Positions 514-33,031 of a stretch of DNA of 33,031 nucleotides are shown in pieces. A program made the position numbers and the translations under genes. The stretch spans positions 1 through 33,031 of the forward strand of contig NZ_JABFRA010000089.1 in NCBI RefSeq assembly GCF_013141425.1, written 5' to 3'. The notes under the pieces are model-generated. The model did no database searches. It was not told where the DNA came from and saw only the letters and a list, made by a program, of their open reading frames with translations. This stretch comes from Methylotenera sp. (lineage in GTDB: Bacteria; Pseudomonadota; Gammaproteobacteria; Burkholderiales; Methylophilaceae). How positions within the stretch are numbered: the first letter of the stretch is position 1; each line of letters opens with the position of its first letter.

Positions 514-1572
514 ATGCAGTTTGCAGGTGGTGCGATTCAACTCGCAGAAAAGGGGTTAATACCAGATGTGGCAATTAGATTAGGTATTCGACAGTTAAGC
601 AAAATACGATTAAGTGAAATAGCAGCGACAGATTGTGAAGCCAGCGCGCAAATCCTAGCCAATTTTATTACGGCAATGAATCAATCGCCAATTGCATTGT
701 TGCCCGATTTAGCCAATGCCCAACATTACGAATTACCCACGGAGTTTTTTGCACTTTGTTTGGGTAAACACCGTAAATACAGCAGCTGTTTTTGGCTGCC
801 TGGGACCAAAAGTTTAGATGAAGCAGAAGCCTTTGCGCTGCAAATGACTTGCGAACATGCTGACTTGTATGATGGCCAGCGTATTCTCGAGCTTGGTTGC
901 GGTTGGGGTTCGCTCACCTTGTGGATGGCAGAGCACTATCCAAAAAGTCGCATTACCGCAGTATCAAATTCCAACTCACAACGTGAATACATTACGCAAA
1001 CGGCACTGGCGCGTAGCTTAAACAATATTCAAGTAATAACTTGCGACATGAATACCTTTAGCCCCAGCGCTTTTGCAATTGATGCGCCATTTGACCGCGT
1101 TGTGTCGGTTGAAATGTTTGAGCACATGCGTAACCACCAGGTGTTATACGGAAAAATTCATGACTGGCTGGTACCAAGTGGCAAGTTCTTAATGCATATC
1201 TTTGTGCATCGCTTAACGCCTTATGCGTTTGAAGTGCAAGGCAAGGATGATTGGATGAGCGAATTTTTCTTTTCAGGTGGGATGATGCCAAGCGATGATT
1301 TACCGCTTTATTTTCAAGAAAAACTTAAATTTAAGCAACGCTGGCGTTGGGATGGCACCCATTATGAAAAAACCGCCAATGCCTGGCTTGCCAATATGGA
1401 CAAGCATCTGGCCTTGATTACACCGATTTTGGAAGCCACTTACGGTGTAATTGAAGCAACTCAATGGCGTAATCGTTGGCGCATATTCTTCATGGCGTGC
1501 GCAGAATTATTTGGCTACAACCAGGGTCAAGAATGGTGGGTTTCACACTATCAATTTGAGCGGCCAAGCTAA
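514..1572 (+). CDS. SAM-dependent methyltransferase, CFA-synthase/coclaurine-N-methyltransferase-like
   Basis: A 352-residue protein. SAM motif I (ILELGCGWGS) lies near residues 124-133, and a YSSC element at 89-92 aligns with the YSC region of E. coli Cfa. MFEHM (201-205) and LMHIF (226-230) supply the Glu and His found at the bicarbonate site of cyclopropane synthases. It is shorter than Cfa and lacks most of the N-terminal lipid-binding region, which resembles the COG2230 subgroup related to plant coclaurine N-methyltransferase. It is the first gene of a nine-gene same-strand run, with an AAGGA ribosome site just before the ATG. A role in methylating an unsaturated or furan acyl chain is inferred from context; a small-molecule substrate is also possible. 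Confidence 0.85.
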   Translation: MQFAGGAIQLAEKGLIPDVAIRLGIRQLSKIRLSEIAATDCEASAQILANFITAMNQSPIALLPDLANAQHYELPTEFFALCLGKHRKYSSCFWLPGTKSLDEAEAFALQMTCEHADLYDGQRILELGCGWGSLTLWMAEHYPKSRITAVSNSNSQREYITQTALARSLNNIQVITCDMNTFSPSAFAIDAPFDRVVSVEMFEHMRNHQVLYGKIHDWLVPSGKFLMHIFVHRLTPYAFEVQGKDDWMSEFFFSGGMMPSDDLPLYFQEKLKFKQRWRWDGTHYEKTANAWLANMDKHLALITPILEATYGVIEATQWRNRWRIFFMACAELFGYNQGQEWWVSHYQFERPS

Positions 1573-1587
1573 ACGTTAGATCTCACA

Positions 1588-2133
1588 ATGAAGCGATTGA
1601 TTAATTTCATTTTATTCCAAGTTTCTTGGTTTTCTTGCGTACTAGGGGCTACGAATAATCTGACTTGGTTGGGCGTGCTGGTGACTTTTATGGTGATATT
1701 TTGGCACCTTTATCAATCTAAGATTATTCAGCCAGAGTTGATGCTGATGTTCACCGTGCTGGTGATAGGCGGTTTATTCGACCAAGCCCTGTTGGCAACT
1801 GATTTGGTTCAATATGTCAATCATGGCTGGAGTAGCGCAGTGGTACCAGTTTGGATTTTAGCGTTATGGCTTGCGTTTGCCAGTATACTCAGTGTGAGTC
1901 TGCGCTGGATGCGCAGCAAATATCTACTGGCTGTGACTTTTGGCGCAATAGGCGGCCCGTTAGCGTATTTGGGTGCTGAAAAATTAGGTGCGGTAACGTT
2001 AAATGGCACAAATGCGATGCTCACTTTATCTATTGGCTGGGCAGTCATTACGCCAATCTTATTTGTGCTTTCTAAACATTTTGATGGCGTTGGTAATGCT
2101 AATGTCGCACTACCATGTCAAGATAGGTCATGA
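1588..2133 (+). CDS. DUF2878 family integral membrane protein
   Basis: A 181-residue, very hydrophobic protein with about five membrane segments. The N-terminus (NFILFQVSWFSCVLGA) has the NF-LFQ--WF--VLGA look of DUF2878. No catalytic motif is visible. It starts 15 bp after the methyltransferase gene and its stop overlaps the next start (ATGATG), so translation is probably coupled. Members of this family occur in proteobacterial clusters with DUF1295, DUF1365, FAD oxidoreductase and CFA-like genes, so a membrane-lipid role is likely. The biochemical function is unknown to me. Confidence 0.75.
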   Translation: MKRLINFILFQVSWFSCVLGATNNLTWLGVLVTFMVIFWHLYQSKIIQPELMLMFTVLVIGGLFDQALLATDLVQYVNHGWSSAVVPVWILALWLAFASILSVSLRWMRSKYLLAVTFGAIGGPLAYLGAEKLGAVTLNGTNAMLTLSIGWAVITPILFVLSKHFDGVGNANVALPCQDRS

Positions 2134-2903
2134 TGGATTGGCAGCAGTATTTACATGGTTTAGCCTCAATCAGCACATTGGCTTTTGCTGGCTGGCTATT
2201 AAGCTTAGTCAGAAATAATGTTACACACGTGGATAGTCTTTGGAGTTTGTTTATAGCATCAGCAGCCTTTGCTTATGCTTTGAATGCAGACGCGCCGACC
2301 CCTCGCACTTTTTTAGTATTATTCTTAGTCACGCTTTGGGCAGTGCGGCTAAGTGCCTATTTAACTTGGCGTAATTGGGGCCCGCATGAAGACCATCGCT
2401 ATGTGGCGATTCGCAAGAATAATTCACCGCATTTCTGGCTAAAAAGCTTGTATATCGTGTTTGGCCTGCAGGCCGTGTTGGCCTGGGTTATTTCGCTGCC
2501 TTTACTGGGTGCTATCGAAGCAAGCGTTGCGCTAACTCGATTAGATTTATTGGGGGCGTTGCTATTTACCTTTGGTTTTGTCTGGCAAGTCGTTGCAGAT
2601 TGGCAGTTAAGCCTTTTTAAAGCAAATGCCAGTCATCGCGGTCAGGTACTGCGCAATGGGTTATGGCGTTACAGCAGGCATCCCAATTACTTTGGTGAAA
2701 GTTGTATATGGTGGGGATTTTATTTAATAGCACTGGCGGCAGGTGCATGGTGGAGTGTGCTATCACCAATGCTCATGACCTTACTTCTACTTAAAGTGAG
2801 TGGAGTCGCGCTGTTAGAAAAAGATATTGCTGAGCGGCGACCTGATTACGCCAGTTATCGTAAAAACACGAACGCATTTTTCCCTTGGTGGCCAAAAAAA
2901 TGA
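2130..2903 (+). CDS. DUF1295 family membrane protein (steroid 5-alpha-reductase-like)
   Basis: A 257-residue polytopic protein of the DUF1295 / 3-oxo-5-alpha-steroid 4-dehydrogenase-like fold. The diagnostic C-terminal stretch (RYSRHPNYFGESCIWWGFY, about residues 180-198) matches the RHPNYFGE signature shared by isoprenylcysteine methyltransferase, sterol reductase and DUF1295 proteins. That region normally binds SAM or NADPH, so a reductase or methyltransferase acting on a lipid double bond is plausible. The start overlaps the DUF2878 stop, and the end overlaps the next gene as ATGA. Its substrate cannot be read from sequence. Confidence 0.85.
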   Translation: MMDWQQYLHGLASISTLAFAGWLLSLVRNNVTHVDSLWSLFIASAAFAYALNADAPTPRTFLVLFLVTLWAVRLSAYLTWRNWGPHEDHRYVAIRKNNSPHFWLKSLYIVFGLQAVLAWVISLPLLGAIEASVALTRLDLLGALLFTFGFVWQVVADWQLSLFKANASHRGQVLRNGLWRYSRHPNYFGESCIWWGFYLIALAAGAWWSVLSPMLMTLLLLKVSGVALLEKDIAERRPDYASYRKNTNAFFPWWPKK

Positions 2904-3547
2904 CAAATACAAAGCAACGTTGCTTCACACTGAGTTGCGCTTTAGTTACCGCAACGTTTTCAGAATTTACCTTGGCTAAAGAGTGGCTGTTTGATGTTTA
3001 TCTAGATCAATCCAAAATCGGCCAGCATTATTTTAACTTAAGCGATGAAGGCGTATTGACCAGCACGGCAAAATTTAATGTAAAAGTGTTATTTATCAAC
3101 GCCTATAAATATGACCATCAGGCCGTTGAGTGGTGGCGCGGCGATTGTTTAGAAAAGTTAGAAGCGCAGACGCTGGAAGATAAGATGAAAACAAATGTTA
3201 AGGCGCAGTTGTCTGAGCAGCATTTGTTGGTAGATGACGGCAAAAAACAACAAACATTGCCGCATTGCAGTATGACGTTTGCCTATTGGAACCCAAAGAT
3301 TACTGAACAGTCGAATTTGCTGAATCCACAAAATGCAGAATGGCTTGAAACAAAGTTTACGTCACTTGGCACTGAAAATATTACGGTGAAAAATGAAAAA
3401 ATAAGCGCGGAGCGATACAAATTAGAAGGCCGCCTCGCAGGAAAGCCAAAACTTAATATTGAGCTTTGGTACAAAGGCGGTAGCGATTGGGTAGCTCTCA
3501 AGTCAATGACCCCAGAGGGCTATACCATTCGATATCAGCTACGTTGA
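2900..3547 (+). CDS. exported DUF6134-like protein
   Basis: About 215 residues from the ATG at 2900, chosen over an upstream start at 2885 because it gives a classic ATGA overlap with the preceding stop. A basic start (TNTKQR) and a hydrophobic stretch ending near TLAKEW look like a signal peptide, so the mature protein is probably periplasmic. The mature part opens with FDVYLDQSKIGQHYF and is beta-rich, like DUF6134 proteins; the family name is from memory. Co-location with a lipocalin suggests lipid binding or transfer between membranes, but no enzyme motif is seen. Confidence 0.65.
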   Translation: MTNTKQRCFTLSCALVTATFSEFTLAKEWLFDVYLDQSKIGQHYFNLSDEGVLTSTAKFNVKVLFINAYKYDHQAVEWWRGDCLEKLEAQTLEDKMKTNVKAQLSEQHLLVDDGKKQQTLPHCSMTFAYWNPKITEQSNLLNPQNAEWLETKFTSLGTENITVKNEKISAERYKLEGRLAGKPKLNIELWYKGGSDWVALKSMTPEGYTIRYQLR

Positions 3548-3559
3548 GGTGAATTCAAT

Positions 3560-4123
3560 ATGAAACTTAATTTTTTAAAAAGCGTATTTTTAATGACATT
3601 TTTAGCGAGTCTTTTAAGTGCTTGTGCAACACAGAAACTTGCCGACATTCCAACTGTACCACAGGTGGATTTGCCTAAATTTATGGGTGATTGGTATGTG
3701 ATTGCTGCAATTCCAACTTTGATTGAAAAGCAATCGTACAACGCGATTGAAAATTATCAGTTAAACCCAGACGGCACGATAGCGACTACCTTTACCTTCA
3801 ATAAAGGCGGTTTAGAAGGTGAATTTAAGACCTATCAACCCCGTGGCTTTGTGGTGGAAAACTCTGGTAATGCACTGTGGGGCATGCAGTTTATCTGGCC
3901 TATTAAAGCTGAATATAGAATTGCTTACTTAAACGCAGACTACACACAAACCATTATTGCCCGAAACGCGCGTGACTATGTGTGGATAATGGCGCGCACG
4001 TCTACCATTAGCGATGCCGACTACAATGCACTGACAGCAATCATTGCATCGTATGGCTATGATTTAAGCTTGTTGCGCAAAGTACCGCACAATGCTGCGT
4101 TAAACCATAACTACGAAAATTAA
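3560..4123 (+). CDS. blc: outer-membrane lipocalin (Blc-like lipoprotein)
   Basis: A 187-residue protein with a lipoprotein signal peptide; the lipobox LLSAC places the acylated Cys at residue 22. The lipocalin GxW signature is GDWYVIA (about 43-49), followed by a typical bacterial-lipocalin barrel (KGGLEGEFK, then GMQFIWPIKAEYRIAYL). E. coli Blc binds lysophospholipids and fatty acids at the outer membrane. Within this cluster it could store or move modified or damaged acyl chains. A ribosome site (TGAGGTG) precedes the ATG at 3560. Confidence 0.9.
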   Translation: MKLNFLKSVFLMTFLASLLSACATQKLADIPTVPQVDLPKFMGDWYVIAAIPTLIEKQSYNAIENYQLNPDGTIATTFTFNKGGLEGEFKTYQPRGFVVENSGNALWGMQFIWPIKAEYRIAYLNADYTQTIIARNARDYVWIMARTSTISDADYNALTAIIASYGYDLSLLRKVPHNAALNHNYEN

Positions 4124-4147
4124 AGTGCTTAAAATTTATAGAATAAT

Positions 4148-5095
4148 ATGTGGTTAAAAAAACTCATTAAATGGCTAGACAATGATGTGGTACAAATCGC
4201 TAGCGCTCAGTCAAATCAGGCGGATTGGCGTCAGATTGACTTGTGGCGCGTGGTTCCCTTTGTGTTGTTGCACCTTGCCTGCCTAGCGGTTTTTTGGGTG
4301 GGGTTTAGCTGGTTTGCTGTTGGTTTTGCGGTTGCACTTTATGCCTTGAGAATGTTTGCCATTACGGGCTTTTATCATCGTTATTTTTCACATAAAACTT
4401 TTCGCACTTCGCGGGGGTTTCAATTTTTAGGGGCTGTTGCTGGGGCGACAGCAGTTCAGCGTGGACCGTTGTGGTGGGCGTCACACCATCGAAATCACCA
4501 CGTAAATGCCGATGAATTAGCGGATGCACATTCCCCCGTTCAGCATGGGTTTTTGTGGAGTCATTTAGGCTGGTTTTTATCGAATCAACATTTCGCAACA
4601 CGAACCGAGCGTGTAAAAGAATTAGCAAGGTTTGCTGAGTTACGATTTTTAGACCGTTTTGACGTAATCGTGCCAATTTTTTTTGCAATCAGCATTTATT
4701 GGTTTGGCGTATGGCTTGAAAATGATTTTTCGCACTTACACACCAATGGCCTGCAATTATTGGTTTGGGGGTTTTTCATTTCAACGGTGGTGTTGTACCA
4801 CGCCACTTTTACGGTAAATTCACTTGCCCACGTTTGGGGCAAGCGGCGTTATGCCACACGTGACCACAGTCGAAATAATGTTTGGATCGCTTTTTTAACG
4901 CTGGGCGAGGGCTGGCATAACAATCATCACCATTTTCCTGGTTCAGCGCGCCAAGGTTTTTACTGGTGGGAAATCGACCTTACCTATTACGGGCTTAAAT
5001 TGTTATCCGCATGCGGCCTGATTTGGGACATACGAACCGTATCAAAAGAAATGCGCGAATCAAGAAAAATTAACTCACATGACGCAAAACAATAA
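4148..5095 (+). CDS. membrane fatty acid desaturase (acyl-CoA/lipid delta-9 type)
   Basis: A 315-residue membrane di-iron desaturase. All three histidine boxes are intact: HRYFSH (77-82), HRNHH (114-118) and HNNHH (257-261), as is the family motif TVNSLAHVWG (222-231). Hydrophobic helices occur around residues 35-70 and 170-220. The family uses O2 and electrons from ferredoxin or cytochrome b5 to insert a double bond. Its place between lipocalin and FAD oxidoreductase genes suggests it acts on membrane acyl chains, possibly on an already methylated chain as proposed for UfaD in furan fatty acid synthesis (inference). The stop overlaps the next gene by 17 bp. Confidence 0.92.
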   Translation: MWLKKLIKWLDNDVVQIASAQSNQADWRQIDLWRVVPFVLLHLACLAVFWVGFSWFAVGFAVALYALRMFAITGFYHRYFSHKTFRTSRGFQFLGAVAGATAVQRGPLWWASHHRNHHVNADELADAHSPVQHGFLWSHLGWFLSNQHFATRTERVKELARFAELRFLDRFDVIVPIFFAISIYWFGVWLENDFSHLHTNGLQLLVWGFFISTVVLYHATFTVNSLAHVWGKRRYATRDHSRNNVWIAFLTLGEGWHNNHHHFPGSARQGFYWWEIDLTYYGLKLLSACGLIWDIRTVSKEMRESRKINSHDAKQ

Positions 5096-6365
5096 GCCAT
5101 TAAAAATTGCTATTATCGGTAGCGGTATAGCGGGCAATACGATTGCCTACCATCTGCATGCTCAGCACGATATCTCAGTGTTTGAGGCTGAAAGCCACGT
5201 TGGCGGACACACTCACACCCACACTATTCATCATGAAGGGAAAGACTATCAGGTAGATACGGGGTTCATTGTATTTAATGACCGTACTTACCCAAACTTT
5301 ATTGCCTTGCTAGATGAATTAAAAGTGGTTTGGCAGCCCAGTGCAATGAGTTTTAGCGTGAAATGTGAAAAAACAGGATTGGAGTACAACGGTACGACTT
5401 TAAATAGTTTATTTGCCCAGCGTAGCAATCTGTTTAAGCCATATTTCTATCAAATGATTCGCGACATTCTGCGCTTTAACAAAAGTGCACTTGAACTGCT
5501 AAATGAAGGCAGTGAAATTAAGCTGGGGGACTATTTGCGCGCGGGGAATTACTGCCAAAAGTTTATTGATTACTACATTATTCCAATGGGTTCTGCAATT
5601 TGGTCAACCGATGCAGCGCAGATGTTAGAGTTTCCTGCGCGATTTTTTGTACGCTTCTTTCACCATCATGGCATGCTCACCGTTAATGATAGGCCGCAAT
5701 GGCGCACCGTGACAAATGGTTCGGCAAGTTATGTTACAGCAATGACCGAACCATTTAAACATCGCATCCAGCTTAAAACACCGATAGAAAATGTGCGGCG
5801 CACCCAAAGTACCGTGTACGTGAGACCTAAACATGGTGAAGAAATAGCCTTTGATTATGTTTTTTTTGCCTGCCATAGCGACCAAGCGCTGAAGATATTA
5901 AGCAATCAAACTGCCGCGGAAACTGAAATACTAAGTGCTATCCCATTTCAAGAAAACAGCATTTATTTGCACCATGATGCAACGTTGATGCCCAAGCGCT
6001 CACTAGCATGGGCCGCATGGAATTACCATGTCACCAAAATTCCTATGAATCGTGTTGCGGTAACGTACAACATGAACATTTTGCAAAACTTGCAAAGTAG
6101 GGAGCCACTTTTAGTTACATTGAATCATGTAGGGGGTATTAACCCAGCCAAAGTGATTAAACGCCTAACTTATACGCACCCCGTCTATACCTTGGCAGGT
6201 GCTGCCGCACAGGCCAAACATGCAGAAATTAGTGGCAAAAACAGAACCGGATTCGCCGGGGCTTATTGGCGCAACGGCTTTCATGAAGATGGTGTGGTGA
6301 GTGCTTTAGAAGCATTAAAGCACTTTGATGAGGCCCTGAAATCAGGGATTCTCTGTGCCAAATAG
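5079..6365 (+). CDS. FAD-dependent oxidoreductase (COG2907-type amine-oxidase fold)
   Basis: A 428-residue flavoprotein. The N-terminal Rossmann motif is GSGIAG (15-20), the ribose-binding acid follows in SVFEAESHVGGHTHT, and the C-terminal FAD segment is GFAGAYWRNGFHEDGVVSALEA. This belongs to the NAD/FAD-binding proteins often annotated as cyclopropane fatty acid synthesis proteins. As I recall, a Rhodobacter homologue (RSP1091) is needed to make furan fatty acids from the methylated precursor. The gene overlaps the desaturase gene by 17 bp and DUF1365 by 11 bp, a strong sign of co-expression. The exact reaction is not proven by sequence. Confidence 0.88.
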   Translation: MTQNNKPLKIAIIGSGIAGNTIAYHLHAQHDISVFEAESHVGGHTHTHTIHHEGKDYQVDTGFIVFNDRTYPNFIALLDELKVVWQPSAMSFSVKCEKTGLEYNGTTLNSLFAQRSNLFKPYFYQMIRDILRFNKSALELLNEGSEIKLGDYLRAGNYCQKFIDYYIIPMGSAIWSTDAAQMLEFPARFFVRFFHHHGMLTVNDRPQWRTVTNGSASYVTAMTEPFKHRIQLKTPIENVRRTQSTVYVRPKHGEEIAFDYVFFACHSDQALKILSNQTAAETEILSAIPFQENSIYLHHDATLMPKRSLAWAAWNYHVTKIPMNRVAVTYNMNILQNLQSREPLLVTLNHVGGINPAKVIKRLTYTHPVYTLAGAAAQAKHAEISGKNRTGFAGAYWRNGFHEDGVVSALEALKHFDEALKSGILCAK

Positions 6366-7131
6366 CGCGATTTACGAGGGATTTGTCACGCATCAGCGCT
6401 TTAGCCCTAAACCACATGGTTTTCACTACCAGGTATTTATGATGTACTTAGATTTAGACGAGCTTCCAACAGTCTTTGGCGGCATGCGGTTCTGGTCGTA
6501 TGAAAGTAAAAACTGGGCATGGTTTAAGCGCGCTGACTACTACGGCAATCCTGAAGAACCGTTAAAAATAGAAATTACCAAGTTGGTGAAGCAAGCGACA
6601 GGCCATGTTCCACGCGGTGCAATTTGTATGCTCACCAATATGCGTTATTTGGGGCATTGCTTTAACCCAGTGACGTTTTACTATTGCTTTGAGCCTGATG
6701 GCAAAACCTTGCAGGCGATTGTGAGCCATATTACTAATACGCCTTGGGGTGAAGATTATGCTTATGTGCATGATTTTAATGCAGAAAAAACCATAAAAAG
6801 TATAAAGCATGGCGACATTACTATTTTTAAATTAGACAAACACTTTCACGTTTCGCCCTTTATGCCTATGAATATTCAATACGACTGGTCCTTTAAGCTT
6901 GAGGGTAATCAACTGCTGGTACATATGAAAAGTTTACAGAATGGCGAGCAATTGTTCAATGCCACCTTGGCGCTACAACGAAAAGAAATAACTGCGTCAA
7001 CACTCAATCAATTACTACTGCGTTACCCATTGATAACCATTAAAGTAGTGGTTGCCATTTACTGGCATGCATTGTTGCTTTGGCTAAAGCGTGTTCCTTT
7101 TTATGCCAACCCGTCACAAATTACAAAATAA
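6355..7131 (+). CDS. DUF1365 family protein (COG3496)
   Basis: A 258-residue protein with the DUF1365 signatures: HQRFSPKPHGFHYQVFMMYLDLDEL near the N-terminus, and MRYLGHCFNPVTFYYCF in the centre. Start is GTG at 6355, supported by AGGGA six bases upstream, and overlaps the FAD gene. DUF1365 is almost always encoded between a COG2907 FAD protein and a CFA-like methyltransferase, exactly as here, and is presumed to act on the same lipid. Its fold and reaction are unknown to me. A hydrophobic C-terminal segment could touch the membrane. Confidence 0.9.
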   Translation: MPNSAIYEGFVTHQRFSPKPHGFHYQVFMMYLDLDELPTVFGGMRFWSYESKNWAWFKRADYYGNPEEPLKIEITKLVKQATGHVPRGAICMLTNMRYLGHCFNPVTFYYCFEPDGKTLQAIVSHITNTPWGEDYAYVHDFNAEKTIKSIKHGDITIFKLDKHFHVSPFMPMNIQYDWSFKLEGNQLLVHMKSLQNGEQLFNATLALQRKEITASTLNQLLLRYPLITIKVVVAIYWHALLLWLKRVPFYANPSQITK

Positions 7132-7161
7132 TCAGACCATAAATTCAGTCAAAAAATAAAA

Positions 7162-8445
7162 ATGTCGAATACCTTACTTATACAAGAAACGCTCACCAGA
7201 GCGTTAAAACAAAAAAGTCGCGCAAAGTGGGTGGCTAATTTTGCTAAAGCGCAAATAGTCAAACGGCTGCAATCGTTGCAAAAGGGCAGGTTAACAATTA
7301 TTGATGGAGCGTCACAACATACCTTTGGCCAAACCGAAGACATACGCGCCACGATTACCATTCACGATCCACGCTTTTATGGTGAAATTGCCTTTGGCGG
7401 CAGCATTGGTGCTGGTGAGGCCTATATGCTGAGTTACTGGACGGCAGACAATTTAACCAACGTAATTCGAATCATGTGCCTCAATCAGTCGGTGATGGAT
7501 ACCATTGAAGGCGGTTATCAATGGCTGACTAAGCCGTTTATGCAGCTGTTACATTGGCTCAATAGCAATACCACAGAAGGCAGCCGCAAGAATATTGCAG
7601 CGCATTACGACTTAGGCAATGCCTTATTTGCCATGTTTTTAGATGAAACCATGATGTATTCCAGCGCGATTTTTAATGATCGCACGGATACGTTAAAGGC
7701 TGCATCTGAACTCAAACTCAAGACCATATGTGAAAAGCTAGATTTAAAAAGTTACGACCATGTGATTGAAATTGGCACAGGTTGGGGTGGTTTTGCTATT
7801 TACGCTGCCAAGCATTATGGCTGCAAAGTCACCTCCACCACCATTTCACAACAGCAATATACTTTAGCCAAGGCCAAGGTGGAGGCGGCTGGCCTGCAAG
7901 ATAAAATCACATTGCTGCTAGACGACTATCGACATTTGCACGGCCAGTTTGATAAGTTGGTTTCGATTGAAATGATTGAAGCGGTCGGGCATCAATTTTA
8001 TGACACTTATTTTGCAACAGTAAGCGCGTTATTAAAGCCAAACGGGCTCGCACTCATTCAAGCCATTACCATTACTGACCAGCGTTATGAAAGCGCAAAA
8101 AATTCAGTTGATTTCATTCAGCGCTATATTTTTCCTGGTTCTTGCATTCCGTCCAATACCGCTATGCTCAATAGCATTACCCGCAAAACTGATTTACGAT
8201 TATTCGACTTAGAAGATATTGGCCTCCATTACGCCACCACTTTAAAACTTTGGCGAGAGAATTTTTTTGAGAATATTGAAGCGGTACGCGCACTTGGTTA
8301 TTCAGAAGAATTTATCAAAATGTGGGAATTTTATCTTTGTTATTGTGAGGGTGGTTTTGCAGAACGTGCGTTGGGCGACGTACATTTATTGCTCGCAAAA
8401 CCTGACAACAGACGTGCCGCATTAAACAGTAAAATCACCAAATAA
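7162..8445 (+). CDS. CFA-synthase-family acyl methyltransferase (UfaM/CfaA-like candidate)
   Basis: A 427-residue COG2230 protein with the full N-terminal region, AAHYDLGNALFAMFLDETMMYSS (about 146-168), and SAM motif I VIEIGTGWGG (201-210). Two residues that hold bicarbonate in E. coli Cfa appear changed: the Cys of YSC is Ser168, and the His of LLHTIG aligns with Gln300. The Glu is kept (MIEAVG, Glu273). A methylating rather than cyclopropanating enzyme, as described for UfaM in Rhodobacter, is therefore plausible (inference). It is the last gene of the cluster, 30 bp after DUF1365. Classical cyclopropane synthesis is not excluded. Confidence 0.9.
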   Translation: MSNTLLIQETLTRALKQKSRAKWVANFAKAQIVKRLQSLQKGRLTIIDGASQHTFGQTEDIRATITIHDPRFYGEIAFGGSIGAGEAYMLSYWTADNLTNVIRIMCLNQSVMDTIEGGYQWLTKPFMQLLHWLNSNTTEGSRKNIAAHYDLGNALFAMFLDETMMYSSAIFNDRTDTLKAASELKLKTICEKLDLKSYDHVIEIGTGWGGFAIYAAKHYGCKVTSTTISQQQYTLAKAKVEAAGLQDKITLLLDDYRHLHGQFDKLVSIEMIEAVGHQFYDTYFATVSALLKPNGLALIQAITITDQRYESAKNSVDFIQRYIFPGSCIPSNTAMLNSITRKTDLRLFDLEDIGLHYATTLKLWRENFFENIEAVRALGYSEEFIKMWEFYLCYCEGGFAERALGDVHLLLAKPDNRRAALNSKITK

Positions 8446-25314: not shown

Positions 25315-25782
25315 TTGAAACTTCGTATTATCTCTGTCGGCCACAAAATGCCAAGTTGGGTTGATGCCGCTTGCGCAGAATACACCAAGCGCATGCCGCG
25401 CGAACTAACCATTGATGTTATTGAAATCAAGCCCGATAAACGTGCCGATGGCAAAAATAGTGCGGTGGTGCAAGAAGCCGAAGCCAAGCGCATTTTAGAG
25501 GCTACTGGCAAAGATTTTTTAATCGCCTGCGATGAACGCGGGCAAGAAGTCAGCACTTTGCAACTGGCTGAAAAATTGCAGTTTTGGCAAGGTTTAGGGC
25601 GCGATGTGAGCATTGTGGTTGGTGGCGCAGATGGCCTGCACGCAAACCTTAAACAGCAAGCAGATTGGCTTTGGGGCTTATCCAAGCTGACCTTGCCACA
25701 CGCTTTTGTTCGCGTGTTGTTGTGTGAGCAACTTTACCGAGCGCATTCGGTCAATCTGGGACATCCCTATCACCGCGAGTAA
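25315..25782 (+). CDS. rlmH: 23S rRNA (pseudouridine1915-N3)-methyltransferase
   Basis: A 155-residue SPOUT methyltransferase. It starts with KLRIISVGHKMPSW, has the SAM-knot VGGADGL and ends with the diagnostic LLCEQLYRAHSVNLGHPYHRE. The start is TTG at 25315: AGAGG (25304-25308) lies six bases upstream, and the nearby ATG at 25311 is out of frame. It methylates pseudouridine 1915 in helix 69 of 23S rRNA. The photolyase ATG follows the stop by one base. Confidence 0.96.
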   Translation: MKLRIISVGHKMPSWVDAACAEYTKRMPRELTIDVIEIKPDKRADGKNSAVVQEAEAKRILEATGKDFLIACDERGQEVSTLQLAEKLQFWQGLGRDVSIVVGGADGLHANLKQQADWLWGLSKLTLPHAFVRVLLCEQLYRAHSVNLGHPYHRE

Positions 25783-25783
25783 T

Positions 25784-27223
25784 ATGCGTTACGATAAATC
25801 TCTCGTTTGGTTTCGGCGTGATCTGCGTGACTATGACCACGCCGCGCTTTACCATGCACTTAAATCCTCAAATAAGGTACTTTGCGTCTTTGTGTTCGAT
25901 ACCGACATACTGGACCAACTGAATGATAAAGTAGACCGTCGCGTAGAATTCATCTGGGAAAGTGTGCGCGAGCTAAAATCCGCCCTGCAATCCAAAGGTG
26001 GCGATTTAATGATACTACATGGTAGTGCGCGAACACTTATTCCAGCCATTGCCCTGCAAGCCAATATCCATGGGGTGTTTGCCAACCATGATTATGAGCC
26101 AAAGGCGATTGCGCGTGACACAGAAGTAGCGGCAACTTTAAGCAAAAACAATATCGCTTTTCATCATTTCAAAGACCATGTAATTTTTGAAAAAGACGAA
26201 GTACTCAACCTTGCGGGCAAGCCTTATGGCGTGTTTACGCCATATAAGAACGCTTGGCTAAAAAAAGTAAATGATTTTTTTGTGCAGCCTTATCCTGTGG
26301 ATGCTTATATTCATCATTTAGCGCAAACTTCGCCCACAGAATTACCTAGCCTTGAAAGTTTAGGCTTTGTGCGCACCAATCTCGCCAATATGCAGCTTCC
26401 TACAGGCATGAGCGGCGGCTTGCAGTTATTTTCAGATTTTGAAAATCGTATGGATAAATACAAAGAAGCACGCGATTTTCCTGCAATTAAAGGCGTTTCA
26501 TATTTATCGGTGCACTTGCGCTTTGGTACAGTTTCCATACGCCATTTAGCAAGGCACGCTAGAAGCCACGCCAATACTGCACCGCAGAGCATTGGTGCTG
26601 AAACATGGCTTAACGAGCTTATTTGGCGTGATTTTTACGTGCAAATTTTGCATCATAATCCGCAAGTGGCTTTTGGTAAATCTTTCAAAACGGAGTTTGA
26701 AAGGCTAGCTTTTCTAAACAACCAAGCGCTTTTTCAAGCATGGCGTGAGGGAAACACGGGCTATCCACTGGTCGATGCCGCCATGCGCCAACTCAACCAA
26801 ACAGGTTTTATGCACAATCGCTTGCGCATGGTAGCAGCTAGTTTTTTAGTAAAAGATTTGCTCATCGACTGGCGTTGGGGCGAACAGTATTTTGCAGAAA
26901 AACTCATTGATTTTGACTTAAGCGCTAACAACGGAGGGTGGCAATGGGCGGCCAGCACGGGTTGTGATGCACAACCTTGGTTTCGCATTTTCAACCCTAT
27001 CACGCAAAGTGAACGCTTTGACGCCCAAGGCAAATTTATTCGTAAGTATGTGCCTGAATTGGCAAAATGCAATGACAAAGAAATTCACGCACCTTGGCTT
27101 ATCGCGCCATTGCGGCTTCAAGAAATCAATCTAGTCATCGGTAAAAACTACCCCGCCCCGGTGGTTGACCATTCAAGTCAGCGTGTAAAAGCACTCAATT
27201 TATATAAACAGCAATCAAAATAG
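25784..27223 (+). CDS. phr: deoxyribodipyrimidine photolyase (class I CPD photolyase)
   Basis: About 479 residues from the ATG at 25784, directly after the rlmH stop; the frame is open further upstream inside rlmH but that part is a shadow. The N-terminal photolyase domain starts SLVWFRRDLRDYDH. The FAD-binding domain contains WLNELIWRDFYVQI, GYPLVDAAMRQLNQTG, MHNRLRM and DFDLSANNGGWQWAASTGCD, with QPWFRIFNP after it. It repairs UV cyclobutane dimers with blue light. In Rhodobacter a photolyase shares the singlet-oxygen regulon with CFA-like genes similar to those at 514-8445; here they are 17 kb apart. Confidence 0.95.
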   Translation: MRYDKSLVWFRRDLRDYDHAALYHALKSSNKVLCVFVFDTDILDQLNDKVDRRVEFIWESVRELKSALQSKGGDLMILHGSARTLIPAIALQANIHGVFANHDYEPKAIARDTEVAATLSKNNIAFHHFKDHVIFEKDEVLNLAGKPYGVFTPYKNAWLKKVNDFFVQPYPVDAYIHHLAQTSPTELPSLESLGFVRTNLANMQLPTGMSGGLQLFSDFENRMDKYKEARDFPAIKGVSYLSVHLRFGTVSIRHLARHARSHANTAPQSIGAETWLNELIWRDFYVQILHHNPQVAFGKSFKTEFERLAFLNNQALFQAWREGNTGYPLVDAAMRQLNQTGFMHNRLRMVAASFLVKDLLIDWRWGEQYFAEKLIDFDLSANNGGWQWAASTGCDAQPWFRIFNPITQSERFDAQGKFIRKYVPELAKCNDKEIHAPWLIAPLRLQEINLVIGKNYPAPVVDHSSQRVKALNLYKQQSK

Positions 27224-27425: not shown

Positions 27426-27974
27426 ATGACAACTTTTCAAAGCTCCGGTAGTTTTCAGTTGCCTAACAGCCATATTTTGGATGTTGGTGATTTATACGCG
27501 AGTAATCACCCTTGGCTACTGACTTGGTTATCAAAAAAATTAGCCTGCCCGTTTGATGCAGCAGATTTGGCGCAAGAGACTTTTATTAAAATTGCGCACT
27601 CAGCCAACGTAGAAGTCATCAAAACGCCACGGGCTTTTCTTACTACCACCGCCACGCGCTTACTTATTGATTTATTGCGCAAACGTAATATAGAACGCAA
27701 ATATTTAGAAGCTCTCTACCAGCAACAAGCCAACAACTTTATTGCCACTCCCGAGCAGATAAAAGAATCCATCGAAACGCTCAACGAAATTGCTGCGCTA
27801 CTAGAAGGCTTACCAGAGAAAGTCTATCGTGCATTTTTATTGTGTCGCCTAGATGGCTTAAGCTACGCGGAAATAGGCAAAGAATTGGGCGTGTCAACTA
27901 GCATGGTTAAGCAATACATTGCCCGTGCCATGGTACATTGTTACCAAGTGGCTTATCCAGACCAAATCCGCTAG
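27426..27974 (+). CDS. FecI-like ECF RNA polymerase sigma factor
   Basis: A 182-residue ECF sigma factor. Region 2 spans about residues 22-88 (DAADLAQETFIKIAHS, then TPRAFLTTTATRLLIDLLRKR), and region 4 about 115-170, with the helix-turn-helix LSYAEIGKELGVSTSMVKQYI. This is the iron-starvation/FecI type, normally activated when an outer-membrane receptor signals through FecR. fecR and a receptor with an STN domain follow on the same strand. No clear ribosome site is seen before the ATG. The regulon probably includes the receptor gene downstream. Confidence 0.93.
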   Translation: MTTFQSSGSFQLPNSHILDVGDLYASNHPWLLTWLSKKLACPFDAADLAQETFIKIAHSANVEVIKTPRAFLTTTATRLLIDLLRKRNIERKYLEALYQQQANNFIATPEQIKESIETLNEIAALLEGLPEKVYRAFLLCRLDGLSYAEIGKELGVSTSMVKQYIARAMVHCYQVAYPDQIR

Positions 27975-28018
27975 AGCATAATAGATTTGATACCAGCGAT
28001 CACTTTATTTAGTTCAAC

Positions 28019-29005
28019 ATGACTGAAAATACTATCCCTAAAAGCATTATTGAAAAAGCTGTAGAGTGGCATCTGCAACTGCACTCTGCTTCAGCAAGCG
28101 CGGCAGACTTTGCTAATTTTTCCGCGTGGCAACACCAAAACCCTGCGCACGCCTTAGCTTATCAGCGCATCGAATCCATGTGGGGTAAATTTGGCGACAT
28201 TGAACCAAACGCCGCAAAAGCCAGCATAGAATCTGCCTTAAAATCTGGTAAATCCATTAAAAAAATCGCACAACATGGCAAAGGCATCACACTTGGTTTG
28301 CTGGCCTTAGTTTCTAGTTATTCCGCTCTACAAACCCAACCCGCACAAGTTTGGTTAGCCGAGAATAAAACTGCGATTGGCGTACAACGTAGTATTGTTT
28401 TGGCCGATGGCAGCACACTCATGCTAAACACCAATACCGCGCTGGATATTGACTTTAGCGGCCATCAACGCTTAATTAAACTTTACCAAGGTGAAGTGCT
28501 AATCACCGTAGCAAAAGACAAATCTCGCCCGCTGATTATTGCTACCGAGCAAGGCACTGCCCAGGCATTGGGCACAAAATTTAATGTTAAAACAGATGCA
28601 GAAGCCACCCAAGTTGCAGTGGTTGAATCTAAAGTTGAAGCCTGTACTAAACCTAGCTTATTTAGCTTTAACCATAAAACCTGCATTACTTTGCACCCAA
28701 ACCAAAGTACAACGATGCGTTCCAAACACATCGATTCAGCGCGCAATGTAGATGCAGAAAGTATTTCCGGCTGGTCAACTGGTACCTTAGCAATTGATAA
28801 CCAAGCGCTCGATCAAGTGCTGGTAGAACTGCAACGCTATAGCTCAGTGCAAATTCAATTCAACCAAGCTGAAATCAGCCAAATGCGGGTTTCGGGCGTG
28901 TTACCGCTCCATAATATTGAGCAAAGCTTGCACTTGCTGGCTGACAAGTTACCCATACAAATACGCAAACCACAGAACAATGTAATGATTGTTCAGGCAA
29001 AATAA
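28019..29005 (+). CDS. FecR-like transmembrane anti-sigma factor/regulator
   Basis: A 328-residue FecR protein. The N-terminal cytoplasmic DUF4880-type domain (AVEWHLQLHSASASAADFANF...W) binds sigma. One hydrophobic segment at about 88-104 (GITLGLLALVSSYSAL) crosses the membrane. The FecR domain follows (QRSIVLADGSTLMLNTNTAL), and the C-terminus has an STN/DUF4974-like domain (LDQVLVELQRYSSVQIQF...). It relays substrate binding from the TonB receptor to the ECF sigma. It lies 44 bp after the sigma gene. Two Cys in the periplasmic part (EACTKP, HKTCIT) could form a disulfide. Confidence 0.93.
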   Translation: MTENTIPKSIIEKAVEWHLQLHSASASAADFANFSAWQHQNPAHALAYQRIESMWGKFGDIEPNAAKASIESALKSGKSIKKIAQHGKGITLGLLALVSSYSALQTQPAQVWLAENKTAIGVQRSIVLADGSTLMLNTNTALDIDFSGHQRLIKLYQGEVLITVAKDKSRPLIIATEQGTAQALGTKFNVKTDAEATQVAVVESKVEACTKPSLFSFNHKTCITLHPNQSTTMRSKHIDSARNVDAESISGWSTGTLAIDNQALDQVLVELQRYSSVQIQFNQAEISQMRVSGVLPLHNIEQSLHLLADKLPIQIRKPQNNVMIVQAK

Positions 29006-29019
29006 TTTTTATATTTCAC

Positions 29020-29046
29020 TGTCCCTTTTATATTCTCATGCGTCAT
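29020..29046 (+). promoter_or_regulatory. possible ECF-sigma promoter of the TonB receptor
   Basis: The 74-bp gap after fecR contains TGTCCC (29020-29025), 15 bp, CGTCAT (29041-29046). A CGTC-type -10 is typical of ECF promoters, and the receptor is the expected target of the FecI-like factor. The -35 assignment is inference. Confidence 0.35.
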
Positions 29047-29079
29047 ATAGAGTGAAAGTAAAATTAAGGGATATTTTGC

Positions 29080-32000
29080 ATGAAAAAGATTCAACCCGCT
29101 ATACTCGCTTCTGTTTGTAGCTTAGTTTGCTCGCTAACCAGCAACTTGGCCATTAGCCAAACCGTTGATGAAAATATAACTAAAAATTTAAGTAAAAATC
29201 AAACAGTTATTAGCGACGCCAGTAGCGCGTACCAACAAGCGCAAAAACCTAAAAGTTACAATATTGGCGCTGGCTCACTCACCCAAGTTCTAAACCGCTT
29301 TGCCCAACAAACTGCTGTAGTATTGGTATTTAACCCAGACCTGACAGAAGGTAAAGCCGCAATCGGCTTAAACGGCCAATACACCACACAAACTGGCTTT
29401 GCGCAAATACTAAAAGGCACAGGCTTAGAAGCCACCAGCAACGCCAATGGTGGCTACTCAATAATAAAATCAGCACCTCCAGCACCCACTAAAGAAATTA
29501 AACTCGACAAAGTAGTTGTCCGCGCCAAGCGCTTCTATGAAGTTGGCCCTATGCCTGGCTTAGGCTTAACCAAAGAAGAAATCCCCGGTAACGTACAAAG
29601 CATTAGCGCCAAAGAGATTAAAGAATCACACGCATTAAGCTTAACAGATTTAATGAACACCCATTTGCAATCAGTCAATGTCAACGACTACCAAGGCAAC
29701 CCTTTTCAGATGGATGTGACTTACCGTGGCTTTACCGCATCACCACAGCTAGGCACTGCGCAAGGTATTTCAGTGTACTTAGATGGTATTCGCGTGAATG
29801 AACCATTTGGTGATGTGGTGAACTGGGACATGATTCCCATGAACGCACTTAAGAGTTTAGATGTGTTTCCAGGTTCTAACCCACTCTTTGGCCTAGGCAC
29901 GTTGGGGGGTGCACTTTCTATGCGCACCAAAAGTGGCTTTGATGGTAAATCACTAGATGCAGAAATTCTTGCAGGCGCTTACGGACGCAAACAATTACAA
30001 ATATCTGCGGGTGATACTAACGGAGTCATTGCAGGCTTTGCCTCAGGTAACTTCTTTTTAGAAGATGGCTGGCGTGATAACTCCCCTAGTAAAGTCAACC
30101 AAGTGTTTGGTAAAGCCGAATGGCGTAATGACCAAGTACAATTGGGTTTATCTATGCTGTATGCGGGTAACAAGCTTACAGGTAATGGTTTATTACCTAC
30201 GCAAATGGCTAATGAAAACCGTAGCCAAGTATATACCTCGCCCGATGAAAGCAAGAACAACTTACTGCAATTTCAACTCTCTGGAATTTGGGATGTCACA
30301 GATACGTTTAACGTGACTGGGCAAATTTACAACCGTAATAGTAAGCGTAAGTCTAAAACTACTGATGTGAATGAAGAGTTTTATGGAGCCGCTTCTCCAA
30401 AAGACCTAGGTGCAGGCAAACAGATTTTGGCAGGATTTTCTGATGTAAACCGCGATGGATTGCCTGATTACAATGACTTCGCAGCCAATATTGCAGCTGA
30501 TGCTGCAGGCAATGCATTAGCTTATGAAAGAGTGGCCGGCGTGCTAACTGGAGGTATTATCACTTGTACTGACCCATTAAATGCCTGCGTGAACGATTTA
30601 GTGGTCGGAACAAATTTTTCTGACAACACAGATTTGTCAGCAGCAGTACAAGCCGCACAAGGGCGAATAGCTCCGGTAACCGATGTAAATGGTGTACCCG
30701 TAGTATCAGGCACCATTCTCAGCTGGACTTTAGACCCCCGTGTAAGCGCTGACTCTCTGCAATTGGACTTTGCAACGCCCTCTACTTTGCCTGGCGTGTT
30801 TAATAGTGGTGCAACCAATGGCAGCAACTTACCAGCTCAATATTATCAATTCGCCTTACAGCAATGGAAAGATAAAATATTTGCAACTCAGAATGGGGCA
30901 AATATCGCAAACTATGGTGGTCTGCACCCAGGCGGCGCCTACAACACAGGTGGAGATTCTAGCAGTAATGTATTTTTCCCAGATGAGGTTAATCGTTATT
31001 ATATTGCCAACTATACTGATAGCAATGGTTTTTATCACGGATTAACAATATTAGATTCGGTGAATCTTGGTTCTGGTAACCCTATGCCTGAAATTGCTCG
31101 TATTCCTCGCGCTGTAAGATCTGGTTTTCAGTATGTAGTGCTTGGTAGTGATGGTCTTCCAATTTCTAGGGATGGTGGCGTTGTCTCAGCATATACTGGT
31201 GGATATGGTCAGGGTTCTGGCTATATTGACGGCACGCCAACAGCGCTCATTACGAATACGCAGATTGACCAAATTGGCACAGGTGGCTCATTACAACTTA
31301 ATTGGAACTTAGATCAGCATAAATTAATGGTGGGTGGCTCAGTCGATATGGCCGATGCCAAGTATGCTAGCTCAGAATATTTAGGTGTGCTAGATAGTCA
31401 GCGTAATGGCCGTGCTGCGCCAGAGTTTTTAGGTTATGAATATTACGCAAGAGACGAAGCGCATGCCATTAGCTTAAATGACTTTAAAGGCGATTCAAAC
31501 ACCAGCAGCTTATACGCCAGCGAAACATGGGCACCAACAAAAAGTCTTAACATCACTGCTGCAGCTCGCTATAACTATACCACCGTGAACAATGTGCTAG
31601 CCGTCACCAATGCGGGCAAATTTAACCGCGATGCCAACTCTTTTTTAAACTTATTAGAAATCTTTCAATTATGCACAGGCGCTATAAATCCTGCCACAGG
31701 TCTGGTAGATGGCAGCTTTTGCCCAACAGGTATAGCGCAAGGTATAACCCCTTTTTCTCCAAGAACTGCCATTATACGTGGTCAGAAAAATGGCCTCGGC
31801 ACACTGACTGCAGATGCAAAAGAGACTTTTCATTATCGCTCATTTAATCCATCTCTAGGAGCGAGCTGGCAAGCGAAAGAAACTCTTAACTTGTATGGCA
31901 ACTGGAATCGAGGCGCTAGAACGCCTACTGTGATTGAGTTGGGTTGTGCTTATGATGATACGCTTATTAAGTTGGAAGGGACTGACCCCGTGCAATATCA

Positions 32001-33031
32001 AGAAAGATCACTAGCAGAAAGACGTAGTTGTAATTTACCTAGCACAATGTCTGGTGATCCATACTTAAAACAAGTACGTTCAGAAACCTTTGAGTTGGGA
32101 GCTAGAGGCAACTGGACAAATGATTTTGAGTGGAATGCCAGTGTTTACCGCACTGACTTGAAAAATGATATTTATTTTGTAAGTGTTAGCCCAAGCAGAA
32201 GTTTTTTTCAAAACATTGGTGATACCAGCCGTCAAGGGCTAGAAATGGGACTCAAAGGTAAGCTAGGCAAAGCACGGTTTGGCCTTAATTACTCACTTAC
32301 GGACGCGAAGTTTCAATCATCATTTAAGTTAGATAGCCCAAACAACAGTTCAGCAGGTGCAAATGAATTAGACGAAAGAGAAGTCATAGAAAATGGGGTG
32401 TTTATTAAACGCAGTGACTTTGGCAAAATTAACGTGAGCCCTGGTAACCGTATGCCAGGTATCCCTTTACATAACTTGAATGCTAATTTTAGTTACGACG
32501 TCACCAATAAGTGGGCGATAGGCCTCAATGCGGTGATGCACTCTAACGCTTTTGTACGTGGCAATGAGAATAATGCCCACAAAGCAGGCGCAGCAACTCC
32601 TCTACATACTACATGTTATTTTCTTCAGCCTGATGGCACTTATCAACCTAGTGAGTGCGATGTTCCACGGGCGGATTTTGGCAGTGGAAAGTCTGCTGGC
32701 TATACAGTATTTAACTTGCAAAGTAGCTATAAATTTAACCCTGAATGGACACTAGGTTTACAAATCAATAACTTGTTTGATAAAAAGTATGCAAGCGCAG
32801 GGCGTTTAGGTTTAAACGCTTTCTCAAAAGGTCCAAATGGTGCCATTGGCGACAGTGGCTTTAACTACAACAGCAGCGAGTGGCAAGGCACCAGCTTTTT
32901 AGGCTTGGGCGCACCACGCTCTACCTACTTGACTCTCACTTACCAGTTTGCTTCTGATGAAAAATCAAGTACAAGTGAAGCAGAAGCTATAACCGTAGAT
33001 CTGCCATTACCTAGCAGACCACTTGATAAAT
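29080..33031 (+). CDS. very large TonB-dependent receptor with STN signalling domain (3' end outside window)
   Basis: The frame is open from ATG 29080 (AAGGGA eight bases upstream) to the right edge: 1317 codons without stop. A signal peptide (about 1-27), an STN domain (about 58-128), a TonB-box-like LDKVVVRAK (143-151) and the plug (about 165-285: GISVYLDGIRVNEPFGDVV, GTLGGALSMRTKSGF) precede a ~1000-residue barrel region, well above the usual ~600. An insertion (about 430-740) holds an EF-hand-like DVNRDGLPDYND (455-466). A typical barrel end TYLTLTYQF is at about 1282-1290, yet at least 27 more residues follow. It partners FecI/FecR. The substrate is unknown: iron chelate, other metal or organic ligand. 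Confidence 0.93.
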   Translation, partial: MKKIQPAILASVCSLVCSLTSNLAISQTVDENITKNLSKNQTVISDASSAYQQAQKPKSYNIGAGSLTQVLNRFAQQTAVVLVFNPDLTEGKAAIGLNGQYTTQTGFAQILKGTGLEATSNANGGYSIIKSAPPAPTKEIKLDKVVVRAKRFYEVGPMPGLGLTKEEIPGNVQSISAKEIKESHALSLTDLMNTHLQSVNVNDYQGNPFQMDVTYRGFTASPQLGTAQGISVYLDGIRVNEPFGDVVNWDMIPMNALKSLDVFPGSNPLFGLGTLGGALSMRTKSGFDGKSLDAEILAGAYGRKQLQISAGDTNGVIAGFASGNFFLEDGWRDNSPSKVNQVFGKAEWRNDQVQLGLSMLYAGNKLTGNGLLPTQMANENRSQVYTSPDESKNNLLQFQLSGIWDVTDTFNVTGQIYNRNSKRKSKTTDVNEEFYGAASPKDLGAGKQILAGFSDVNRDGLPDYNDFAANIAADAAGNALAYERVAGVLTGGIITCTDPLNACVNDLVVGTNFSDNTDLSAAVQAAQGRIAPVTDVNGVPVVSGTILSWTLDPRVSADSLQLDFATPSTLPGVFNSGATNGSNLPAQYYQFALQQWKDKIFATQNGANIANYGGLHPGGAYNTGGDSSSNVFFPDEVNRYYIANYTDSNGFYHGLTILDSVNLGSGNPMPEIARIPRAVRSGFQYVVLGSDGLPISRDGGVVSAYTGGYGQGSGYIDGTPTALITNTQIDQIGTGGSLQLNWNLDQHKLMVGGSVDMADAKYASSEYLGVLDSQRNGRAAPEFLGYEYYARDEAHAISLNDFKGDSNTSSLYASETWAPTKSLNITAAARYNYTTVNNVLAVTNAGKFNRDANSFLNLLEIFQLCTGAINPATGLVDGSFCPTGIAQGITPFSPRTAIIRGQKNGLGTLTADAKETFHYRSFNPSLGASWQAKETLNLYGNWNRGARTPTVIELGCAYDDTLIKLEGTDPVQYQERSLAERRSCNLPSTMSGDPYLKQVRSETFELGARGNWTNDFEWNASVYRTDLKNDIYFVSVSPSRSFFQNIGDTSRQGLEMGLKGKLGKARFGLNYSLTDAKFQSSFKLDSPNNSSAGANELDEREVIENGVFIKRSDFGKINVSPGNRMPGIPLHNLNANFSYDVTNKWAIGLNAVMHSNAFVRGNENNAHKAGAATPLHTTCYFLQPDGTYQPSECDVPRADFGSGKSAGYTVFNLQSSYKFNPEWTLGLQINNLFDKKYASAGRLGLNAFSKGPNGAIGDSGFNYNSSEWQGTSFLGLGAPRSTYLTLTYQFASDEKSSTSEAEAITVDLPLPSRPLDK

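Follow-up and report, generated by a model that had tools for sequence, protein, structure and literature searches.

A candidate furan fatty acid operon with a conserved set of partner genes in Methylotenera sp.

The stretch of DNA analyzed here (the window) comprises 33,031 nucleotides of Methylotenera sp. (family Methylophilaceae; assembly GCF_013141425.1) and is the entire contig NZ_JABFRA010000089.1. Nine open reading frames occupy positions 514 to 8445 of its + strand (Table 1), separated by gaps of 12 to 30 bases or overlapping by 4 to 19 bases, and all nine match Pfam domains above Pfam's own cut-offs; the packed, co-directional operon described in a first-pass annotation, made from the sequence alone, was thus found as stated. 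For gene 4, the earliest possible start is a TTG at 2885; the more likely start is an ATG at 2900 that overlaps the gene 3 stop codon. We propose that this operon very probably makes mono- and dimethyl furan fatty acids (FuFAs) on existing phospholipid chains, with the help of service genes. The proposal rests on four-for-four homology to the known FuFA enzymes, on clade support for the two methyltransferases, on the co-occurrence of the genes across genomes, and on the recurrence of the complete nine-gene set, ordered as in the window, in 28 of the 40 loci sampled from the family.

In the published pathway (papers are cited here and below for those of their sections that were available), UfaM methylates cis-vaccenate within phospholipid; UfaD, an NAD/FAD-binding, phytoene-desaturase-like protein, yields 11Me-10t,12t-18:2; UfaO, a DUF1365 protein, forms the furan using oxygen from O2; and FufM carries out the second methylation step, production of 9M5 and 9D5 having been shown for RPA2569-2571 plus FufM of R. 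palustris (PMC7380195). Our reference proteins were taken from the Rhodopseudomonas loci of JSC-3b, AAP120, and B29, which stand in for the FufM of strain CGA009 by family and identity pattern. Gene 9 shares 40% identity with the UfaM of R. palustris JSC-3b over 418 amino acids (aa), and gene 1 shares 47% with the FufM-like protein of the same strain over 339 aa, versus 25 to 27% with UfaM. Gene 7 is 41% identical to two Rhodopseudomonas UfaD proteins over 414 to 417 aa (417 for JSC-3b), while gene 8 aligns with JSC-3b UfaO over 261 aa at 28% identity, scores 264.8 bits on the DUF1365 model (cut-off, 25), and yields a predicted structure with a pLDDT (predicted local distance difference test) of 94. 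By homology, gene 9 is the UfaM counterpart, predicted to use S-adenosylmethionine for methylating cis-unsaturated phospholipid chains, and gene 1 is the FufM counterpart, predicted to methylate the furan ring a second time. Since the published UfaD is an NAD/FAD-binding protein and the published UfaO a DUF1365 protein, gene 7 is the UfaD counterpart, predicted to turn the methyl-branched chain into a conjugated diene by desaturation, and gene 8 the UfaO counterpart, with a predicted O2-dependent furan ring closure as the oxygen-inserting step. The homology search proposed in the first-pass annotation, which had placed counterparts of all four enzymes in this one locus, therefore returned a match for each of them in the Rhodopseudomonas set.

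That annotation had also counted a three-His-box desaturase as evidence for the desaturation step. The boxes (HRYFSH, HRNHH, and HNNHH) are indeed present in the translation of gene 6; together with the FA_desaturase domain and the PDB match (4ymk, 1.2e-28), they describe an SCD-like membrane desaturase. Because its closest solved relatives are SCD-like acyl desaturases and the published UfaD is of the NAD/FAD-binding type, we rejected gene 6 as UfaD; judged from its sequence, it is an extra desaturase outside the known FuFA pathway. The objection that the closest homologues might be ordinary cyclopropane synthases and delta-9 desaturases does not apply to genes 1, 7, 8, and 9, and it does apply to gene 6, whose closest solved relatives are ordinary acyl-CoA desaturases. 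Within the genome assembly (2.48 Mb, 142 contigs, 99.5% complete), gene 8 is the single DUF1365 gene and gene 6 the single FA_desaturase match; FabA is encoded elsewhere. Both strong genes of the cyclopropane fatty acid (CFA) methyltransferase family (280 and 118 bits) lie in the operon, a third CMAS match (36 bits) being on a different contig.

Table 1. Genes of the operon and other features located in the window
Feature	Positions	Strand	Family match and reading
Gene 1	514..1572	+	Pfam CMAS; FufM counterpart, CNMT (coclaurine N-methyltransferase)-like branch of CFA methyltransferases
Gene 2	1588..2133	+	Pfam DUF2878, 8.9e-42; small, hydrophobic, presumably membrane
Gene 3	2130..2903	+	Pfam DUF1295; membrane protein with predicted steroid 5-alpha-reductase fold
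Gene 4	2885..3547	+	Pfam DUF6134, 2.3e-45; probably exported (N-terminal signal-like stretch, judged by eye)
Gene 5	3560..4123	+	Pfam Lipocalin_2, 2.7e-36; Blc-type lipocalin
Gene 6	4148..5095	+	Pfam FA_desaturase; three-His-box, SCD-like acyl desaturase
Gene 7	5079..6365	+	Pfam Amino_oxidase/NAD_binding_8; COG2907-type, FAD-binding; UfaD counterpart
Gene 8	6355..7131	+	Pfam DUF1365, 9.3e-79; start GTG; UfaO counterpart
Gene 9	7162..8445	+	Pfam CMAS; UfaM counterpart
Photolyase gene	25706..27223		17 kb past the operon
FecI-like sigma factor, FecR-like regulator, long TonB-dependent receptor	27426..33030		Probably an iron-uptake unit (names from sequence)

Conservation was surveyed in 120 genomes of the family, from which the 40 loci come, and in a phylum sample of 398 genomes, with 100 DUF1365 loci from other families. 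DUF1365 occurs in 88 of the 120 family genomes, including two genera with genomes of 0.9 to 1.4 Mb, and in 153 of the 398 phylum genomes. Of the remaining family loci, two keep the nine-gene order up to the contig end, two lack DUF6134 only, and eight are shorter, split, or cut. In one genus of 1.3- to 1.4-Mb genomes, two loci hold genes 5 to 9 only (predicted product, mono-methyl furan), and in another genus of such small genomes two hold all but gene 4 (predicted product, dimethyl furan). Gene 7 adjoins gene 8 in 40/40 family loci; in the phylum sample it is present at all 100 loci and adjoins gene 8 in 98, and gene 9 is present in 85 and adjoins gene 8 in 81. Genes 1 to 6 were found in 14, 23, 16, 10, 8, and 6 of these 100 loci, respectively. 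Outside the family, the order 6-7-8-9-2-3-1-5 was seen in three loci of the same class, and 6-7-8-9-3-1-5, 3-1-5-7-8-9, and 1-2-3-4-5-7-8-9 in one locus each. That the genes stay together while their order changes points to a common function, beyond common ancestry. The 184-kb mobilizable plasmid NZ_CP048660 of Acinetobacter piscicola carries lipocalin-desaturase-ufaD-ufaO-ufaM-DUF1295-fufM along with photolyase and nudC genes, and the 40 best matches listed for gene 1 include six further Acinetobacter plasmids.

Twenty-three other genes of the window served as a control: 21 of them turn up in no more than one of the 100 phylum loci and in 0/40 family loci, the exceptions being the photolyase (36/100 and 1/40) and the FecI-like gene (52/100 and 9/40), whose profile picks up extracytoplasmic function (ECF) sigma factors in general. 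As these neighbors are mostly unlinked, the right end of the conserved unit falls at 8445, where the first-pass annotation had placed it; mscL follows on the reverse strand, 529 bases beyond gene 9. To the left of the operon, only 513 bases of contig remain, with a CorC/CBS-like gene fragment (name inferred) that ends at 410.

The partner genes are linked to the core enzymes by co-occurrence as well. The gene 1 profile picked out 33 of the 398 phylum genomes at 455 to 595 bits, the next match scoring 154; DUF1365 was present in 30 of these 33, versus 153 of 398 overall (Fisher 9e-11). DUF2878 exceeded its cut-off in 72 genomes, 71 of which also have DUF1365 (Fisher 5e-34; both values are uncorrected for kinship), which strongly ties gene 2, by genome distribution, to the UfaO pathway. 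Of the 14 phylum loci with gene 1, 11 have DUF1295 next to it, as do 11 of the 12 loci of the family that holds Rhodopseudomonas-like genera. We also considered 80 named FufM loci, the best 80 of 585, mostly alphaproteobacterial and holding gene 1 by construction of the gene-1-like query: DUF1295 directly adjoins the gene-1-like gene in 59, whereas 21, including eight Bradyrhizobium loci, have no adjoining DUF1295, and a second role of the FufM-like methylase is possible in these eight loci and in three genomes of one genus that have a FufM-like gene but no DUF1365 match. DUF6134 is present in 10 of the same 80 loci and, in the phylum sample, lies close to ufaDO at 10 of 100 loci. Gene 3 is 33% identical over 251 aa to the DUF1295 protein beside fufM in JSC-3b, and its neighborhood strongly ties it to FufM as a putative partner. 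Thus, the gene-neighborhood analysis proposed at the outset for DUF2878, DUF1295, and DUF1365 places DUF1295 beside FufM-like genes and DUF2878 in the same genomes as DUF1365.

Because DUF1295 immediately precedes the fufM-like gene in the three Rhodopseudomonas genomes, RPA0923 is probably a DUF1295 gene; PMC7380195 lists a strain deleted for RPA0923 and, in the available sections, describes no phenotype for it. According to the same source, FufM by itself sufficed for 9D5 in R. sphaeroides, so DUF1295 is dispensable for that step there. We found no literature joining furan fatty acids with DUF1295, DUF2878, or DUF6134 in a search that left most subscription papers outside, and among the 14 papers naming DUF1295, judged by titles and the starts of abstracts, only the one on the algal SAK1 regulon came near the topic.

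In a CFA-family tree of 39 rows (UfaM clade, 21; FufM clade, 15; and E. coli Cfa with two RPA3082-like proteins), gene 9 falls within the UfaM clade (support, 99/95), apart from E. coli Cfa, and gene 1 within the FufM clade (100/100); E. coli Cfa groups with the RPA3082-like proteins at 93/84, where the program warns of long branches meeting. Moreover, genes 9 and 1 (282.6 and 128.5 bits) stay below the 400-bit cut-off of the Cfa equivalog NF008686, as does R. palustris UfaM (277.7), while E. coli Cfa scores 701.9. In the Rhodopseudomonas genomes, FufM-like proteins are 27 to 28% and RPA3082-like proteins 29 to 37% identical to UfaM. The printed identities to R. sphaeroides UfaM are 26% for FufM and 38% for RPA3082 (PMC7380195), and owing to the similarity of these values the split of the family resembles the one described there. 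One RPA3082-like protein is present in each of AAP120 and B29; none was found in JSC-3b, the third genome compared. Tree, identities, and NF008686 scores hence bear out the initial view that genes 9 and 1 do not group with ordinary cyclopropane synthases.

An operon in which gene 9 forms cyclopropanes, and genes 7, 8, and 1 perform other chemistry with no furan made, is nonetheless suggested by the best PDB match of gene 9, the solved cyclopropane synthase 6bqc (2.9e-57; the listed matches held no UfaM structure). Plant enzymes that we take to share the EMIEAVGH motif presumably produce cyclopropanes too. When a UfaM from Halomonas was expressed in E. coli, the methyl-ene was formed and cyclic chains were detected as well (PMC12089945). 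However, gene 9 groups with R. palustris UfaM rather than with E. coli Cfa, UfaO adjoins it, and a FufM counterpart is present. The position of E. coli Cfa His266, which we take to be part of the bicarbonate site, is occupied by Gln in 21/21 UfaM-clade rows (Q300 in gene 9), against His in 3/3 Cfa rows and in 15/15 FufM rows, and we consider a cyclopropane or methyl-branched operon very unlikely. Nor does it seem at all probable that the operon stops at mono-methyl FuFAs, with gene 1 methylating an amine or other small molecule as plant coclaurine N-methyltransferases do. Its best PDB match is such an enzyme (1.1e-67), and FufM is reported to be 38% identical to Arabidopsis AT4G33110 (PMC10940516), but its identity to the Rhodopseudomonas FufM-like protein, the tight clade, and the presence of DUF1365 in 30 of the 33 genomes with a gene-1-like gene all favor a FufM function.

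The fold of gene 3 bears on what a FufM partner might do. Its predicted structure has the fold of bacterial and human steroid 5-alpha-reductases (PbSRD5A, 7c83; SRD5A2, 7bw1) and of the delta-14 sterol reductase 4quv, aligning over most of the chain at 16 to 19% identity (Z scores for the reductases, 15.4 over 207, 15.1 over 227, and 13.7 over 199 residues). Profile searches returned PbSRD5A (1.2e-5), SRD5A2 (1.6e-4), and the chloroplast protein AtTam46 (4e-4), followed by ICMT (1.6e-3). The alternative, an ICMT/PEMT-type membrane methyltransferase, seems rather unlikely to us: it aligns at Z 12.6 over 168 residues, below all three reductases in both score and length, ICMT ranks behind PbSRD5A and SRD5A2, and D157, N186, and E190 of gene 3, invariant or nearly so, align with the reductase Asp, Asn, and Glu that presumably contact NADPH in SRD5A2. 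Gene 3 is thus most likely a membrane protein of the reductase fold, with a putative NADPH-dependent C=C reduction. As for gene 5, its translation carries a lipobox-like LSAC (judged by eye), and it is probably an outer-membrane lipoprotein.

The FuFA genes of R. sphaeroides belong to the core of the singlet-oxygen regulon, and furan fatty acids are destroyed by singlet oxygen (PMC6852236); ufaM of Pseudomonas mendocina is induced about 25- to 33-fold by light (PMC9758184). The neighbors of UfaO at the 100 phylum loci include a short-chain dehydrogenase (68), ChrR (55), an ECF sigma factor (47 to 51), SnoaL-like (42) and DUF3833-like (41) proteins, and a photolyase (34 to 36), where SnoaL, DUF3833, and short-chain dehydrogenase were named from sequence; ChrR and photolyase would link UfaO to singlet oxygen in this sample. 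Within the family, an ECF sigma factor gene lies upstream and co-directional in the fetched stretch at 11 of 40 loci. Seven of these have an RskA-type anti-sigma factor between the ECF gene and gene 1, and two, from the window's own genus, a ChrR-cupin-like protein about 3 kb upstream that scores far below the TIGR02451 cut-off; outside the family, two loci likewise have an RskA-like gene immediately upstream of the operon (six of these nearby ECF, RskA, and ChrR-cupin-like proteins were checked by Pfam). In Chlamydomonas, the SAK1-dependent singlet-oxygen genes include CFA1, CFA2/coclaurine N-methyltransferase, DUF1365, DUF1295, DUF2177, SOUL, fasciclin-like, and MSR genes (PMC4067076). Many of these families recur at a single locus of a Mesorhizobium terrae plasmid (NZ_CP044217), with ufaMOD, rpoE-chrR, DUF1295-fufM, DUF2177, fasciclin, SOUL, lipocalin, and msrPQ. 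Testing for such lipids was under way in 2021, according to the authors of a Chlamydomonas review (PMC8491031).

Taken together, these results suggest the following pathway. By homology, gene 9 would methylate a membrane acyl chain at its cis double bond, leaving a trans-ene; the flavoprotein encoded by gene 7 would introduce a second double bond, giving a methyl-branched conjugated diene; gene 8 would convert the diene and O2 to the closed furan; and gene 1 would add the second ring methyl. The products would be 7M5 and 7D5 from omega-7 16:1, common in such bacteria, or 9M5 and 9D5 from 18:1. Furan chains, being destroyed by singlet oxygen, would protect the membrane or report its damage. For the service genes we can only speculate that gene 3 acts as a reductase on a C=C bond in either a furan precursor or an oxidation product, that genes 4 and 5 handle modified or oxidized lipid in the envelope, and that gene 6 provides unsaturated chains by an aerobic route; gene 2 is tied to the pathway.

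A further idea, which we think unlikely, is a renewable singlet-oxygen trap: singlet oxygen would open the ring of the (di)methyl furan, giving an unsaturated diketone whose C=C bond gene 3 would reduce with NADPH to yield the saturated 1,4-diketone, and UfaO, or spontaneous ring closure, would regenerate the furan. The saturated 1,4-diketone of 9M5 is C19H34O4, the formula of the diene-O2 adduct, which UfaO would have to dehydrate to form the furan, and diene plus O2 to furan plus water balances (C19H34O2 + O2 = C19H32O3 + H2O). In such a scheme UfaO would be a lipid-holding beta-barrel with no obvious cofactor site and no need for a reductant.

Several observations weigh against a FuFA operon. 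Gene 8 has low identity to UfaO (28%), and plant cyclopropane synthases presumably belong to the UfaM-like branch, so that clade membership is no proof of product. Most UfaO loci in the phylum sample lack genes 1 to 6, which are therefore dispensable for the core pathway, 3 of the 33 FufM-like genomes, all of one genus, have no DUF1365 match, and the co-occurrence statistics are not adjusted for kinship. Furthermore, no ChrR (TIGR02451) was found in the Methylotenera genome at E 0.001 and no RpoE-type box in the window (0.6 expected by chance), so singlet-oxygen control would be putative in this organism.

The FuFA pathway was elucidated in two alphaproteobacteria, and our survey adds five partner families. 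The strong ties of DUF1295 to FufM and of DUF2878 to UfaO give uncharacterized genes a pathway. The retention of DUF1365 in 0.9- to 1.4-Mb genomes implies a function that seems worth its cost in streamlined bacteria, and FuFAs are likely a shield against light-made reactive oxygen. If the hosts are planktonic methylotrophs, as we infer, they would be candidate aquatic sources of furan fatty acids. By analogy, the likeness to the algal singlet-oxygen regulon suggests one membrane-protection module common to bacteria and plants.

Compared with known systems, the operon uses the enzyme families of R. palustris (RPA2571-2569, ufaD-ufaO-ufaM; RPA0924, fufM) and R. sphaeroides (RSP1091, ufaD; RSP1090, ufaO; RSP2144, ufaM) and shares the order ufaD-ufaO-ufaM with two Rhodopseudomonas loci. 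Here, all four enzymes lie in one operon with five more genes, whereas fufM is located elsewhere, behind DUF1295, in the three Rhodopseudomonas genomes; in R. sphaeroides, ufaM lies apart from ufaD-ufaO, and fufM was introduced from R. palustris (PMC7380195). The pmlR1/ufaM cluster of Pseudomonas mendocina resembles the operon in its FAD oxidoreductase, UfaM, and unannotated ORFs, and belongs to a light-induced polycistron region with a photolyase, but it differs in its LitR/LOV control, its short-chain dehydrogenase, and the absence of a named FufM in the available sections (PMC9758184). In Aeromonas salmonicida, a predicted operon of cfa, COG2907, DUF1365, and DUF2878 genes, for which only a role in fatty acid metabolism was suggested, places genes 9, 7, 8, and 2 next to each other; the genes listed there include no FufM, DUF1295, lipocalin, or desaturase (PMC10012899). 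The Chlamydomonas SAK1 set, in which the families of genes 9, 1, 8, and 3 are induced (matched by name, not sequence), is a eukaryotic regulon and not a gene cluster (PMC4067076). The Methylotenera operon is, by sequence comparison, a consolidated version of the known pathway, and what is new is its partner set and the gene-level predictions that follow.

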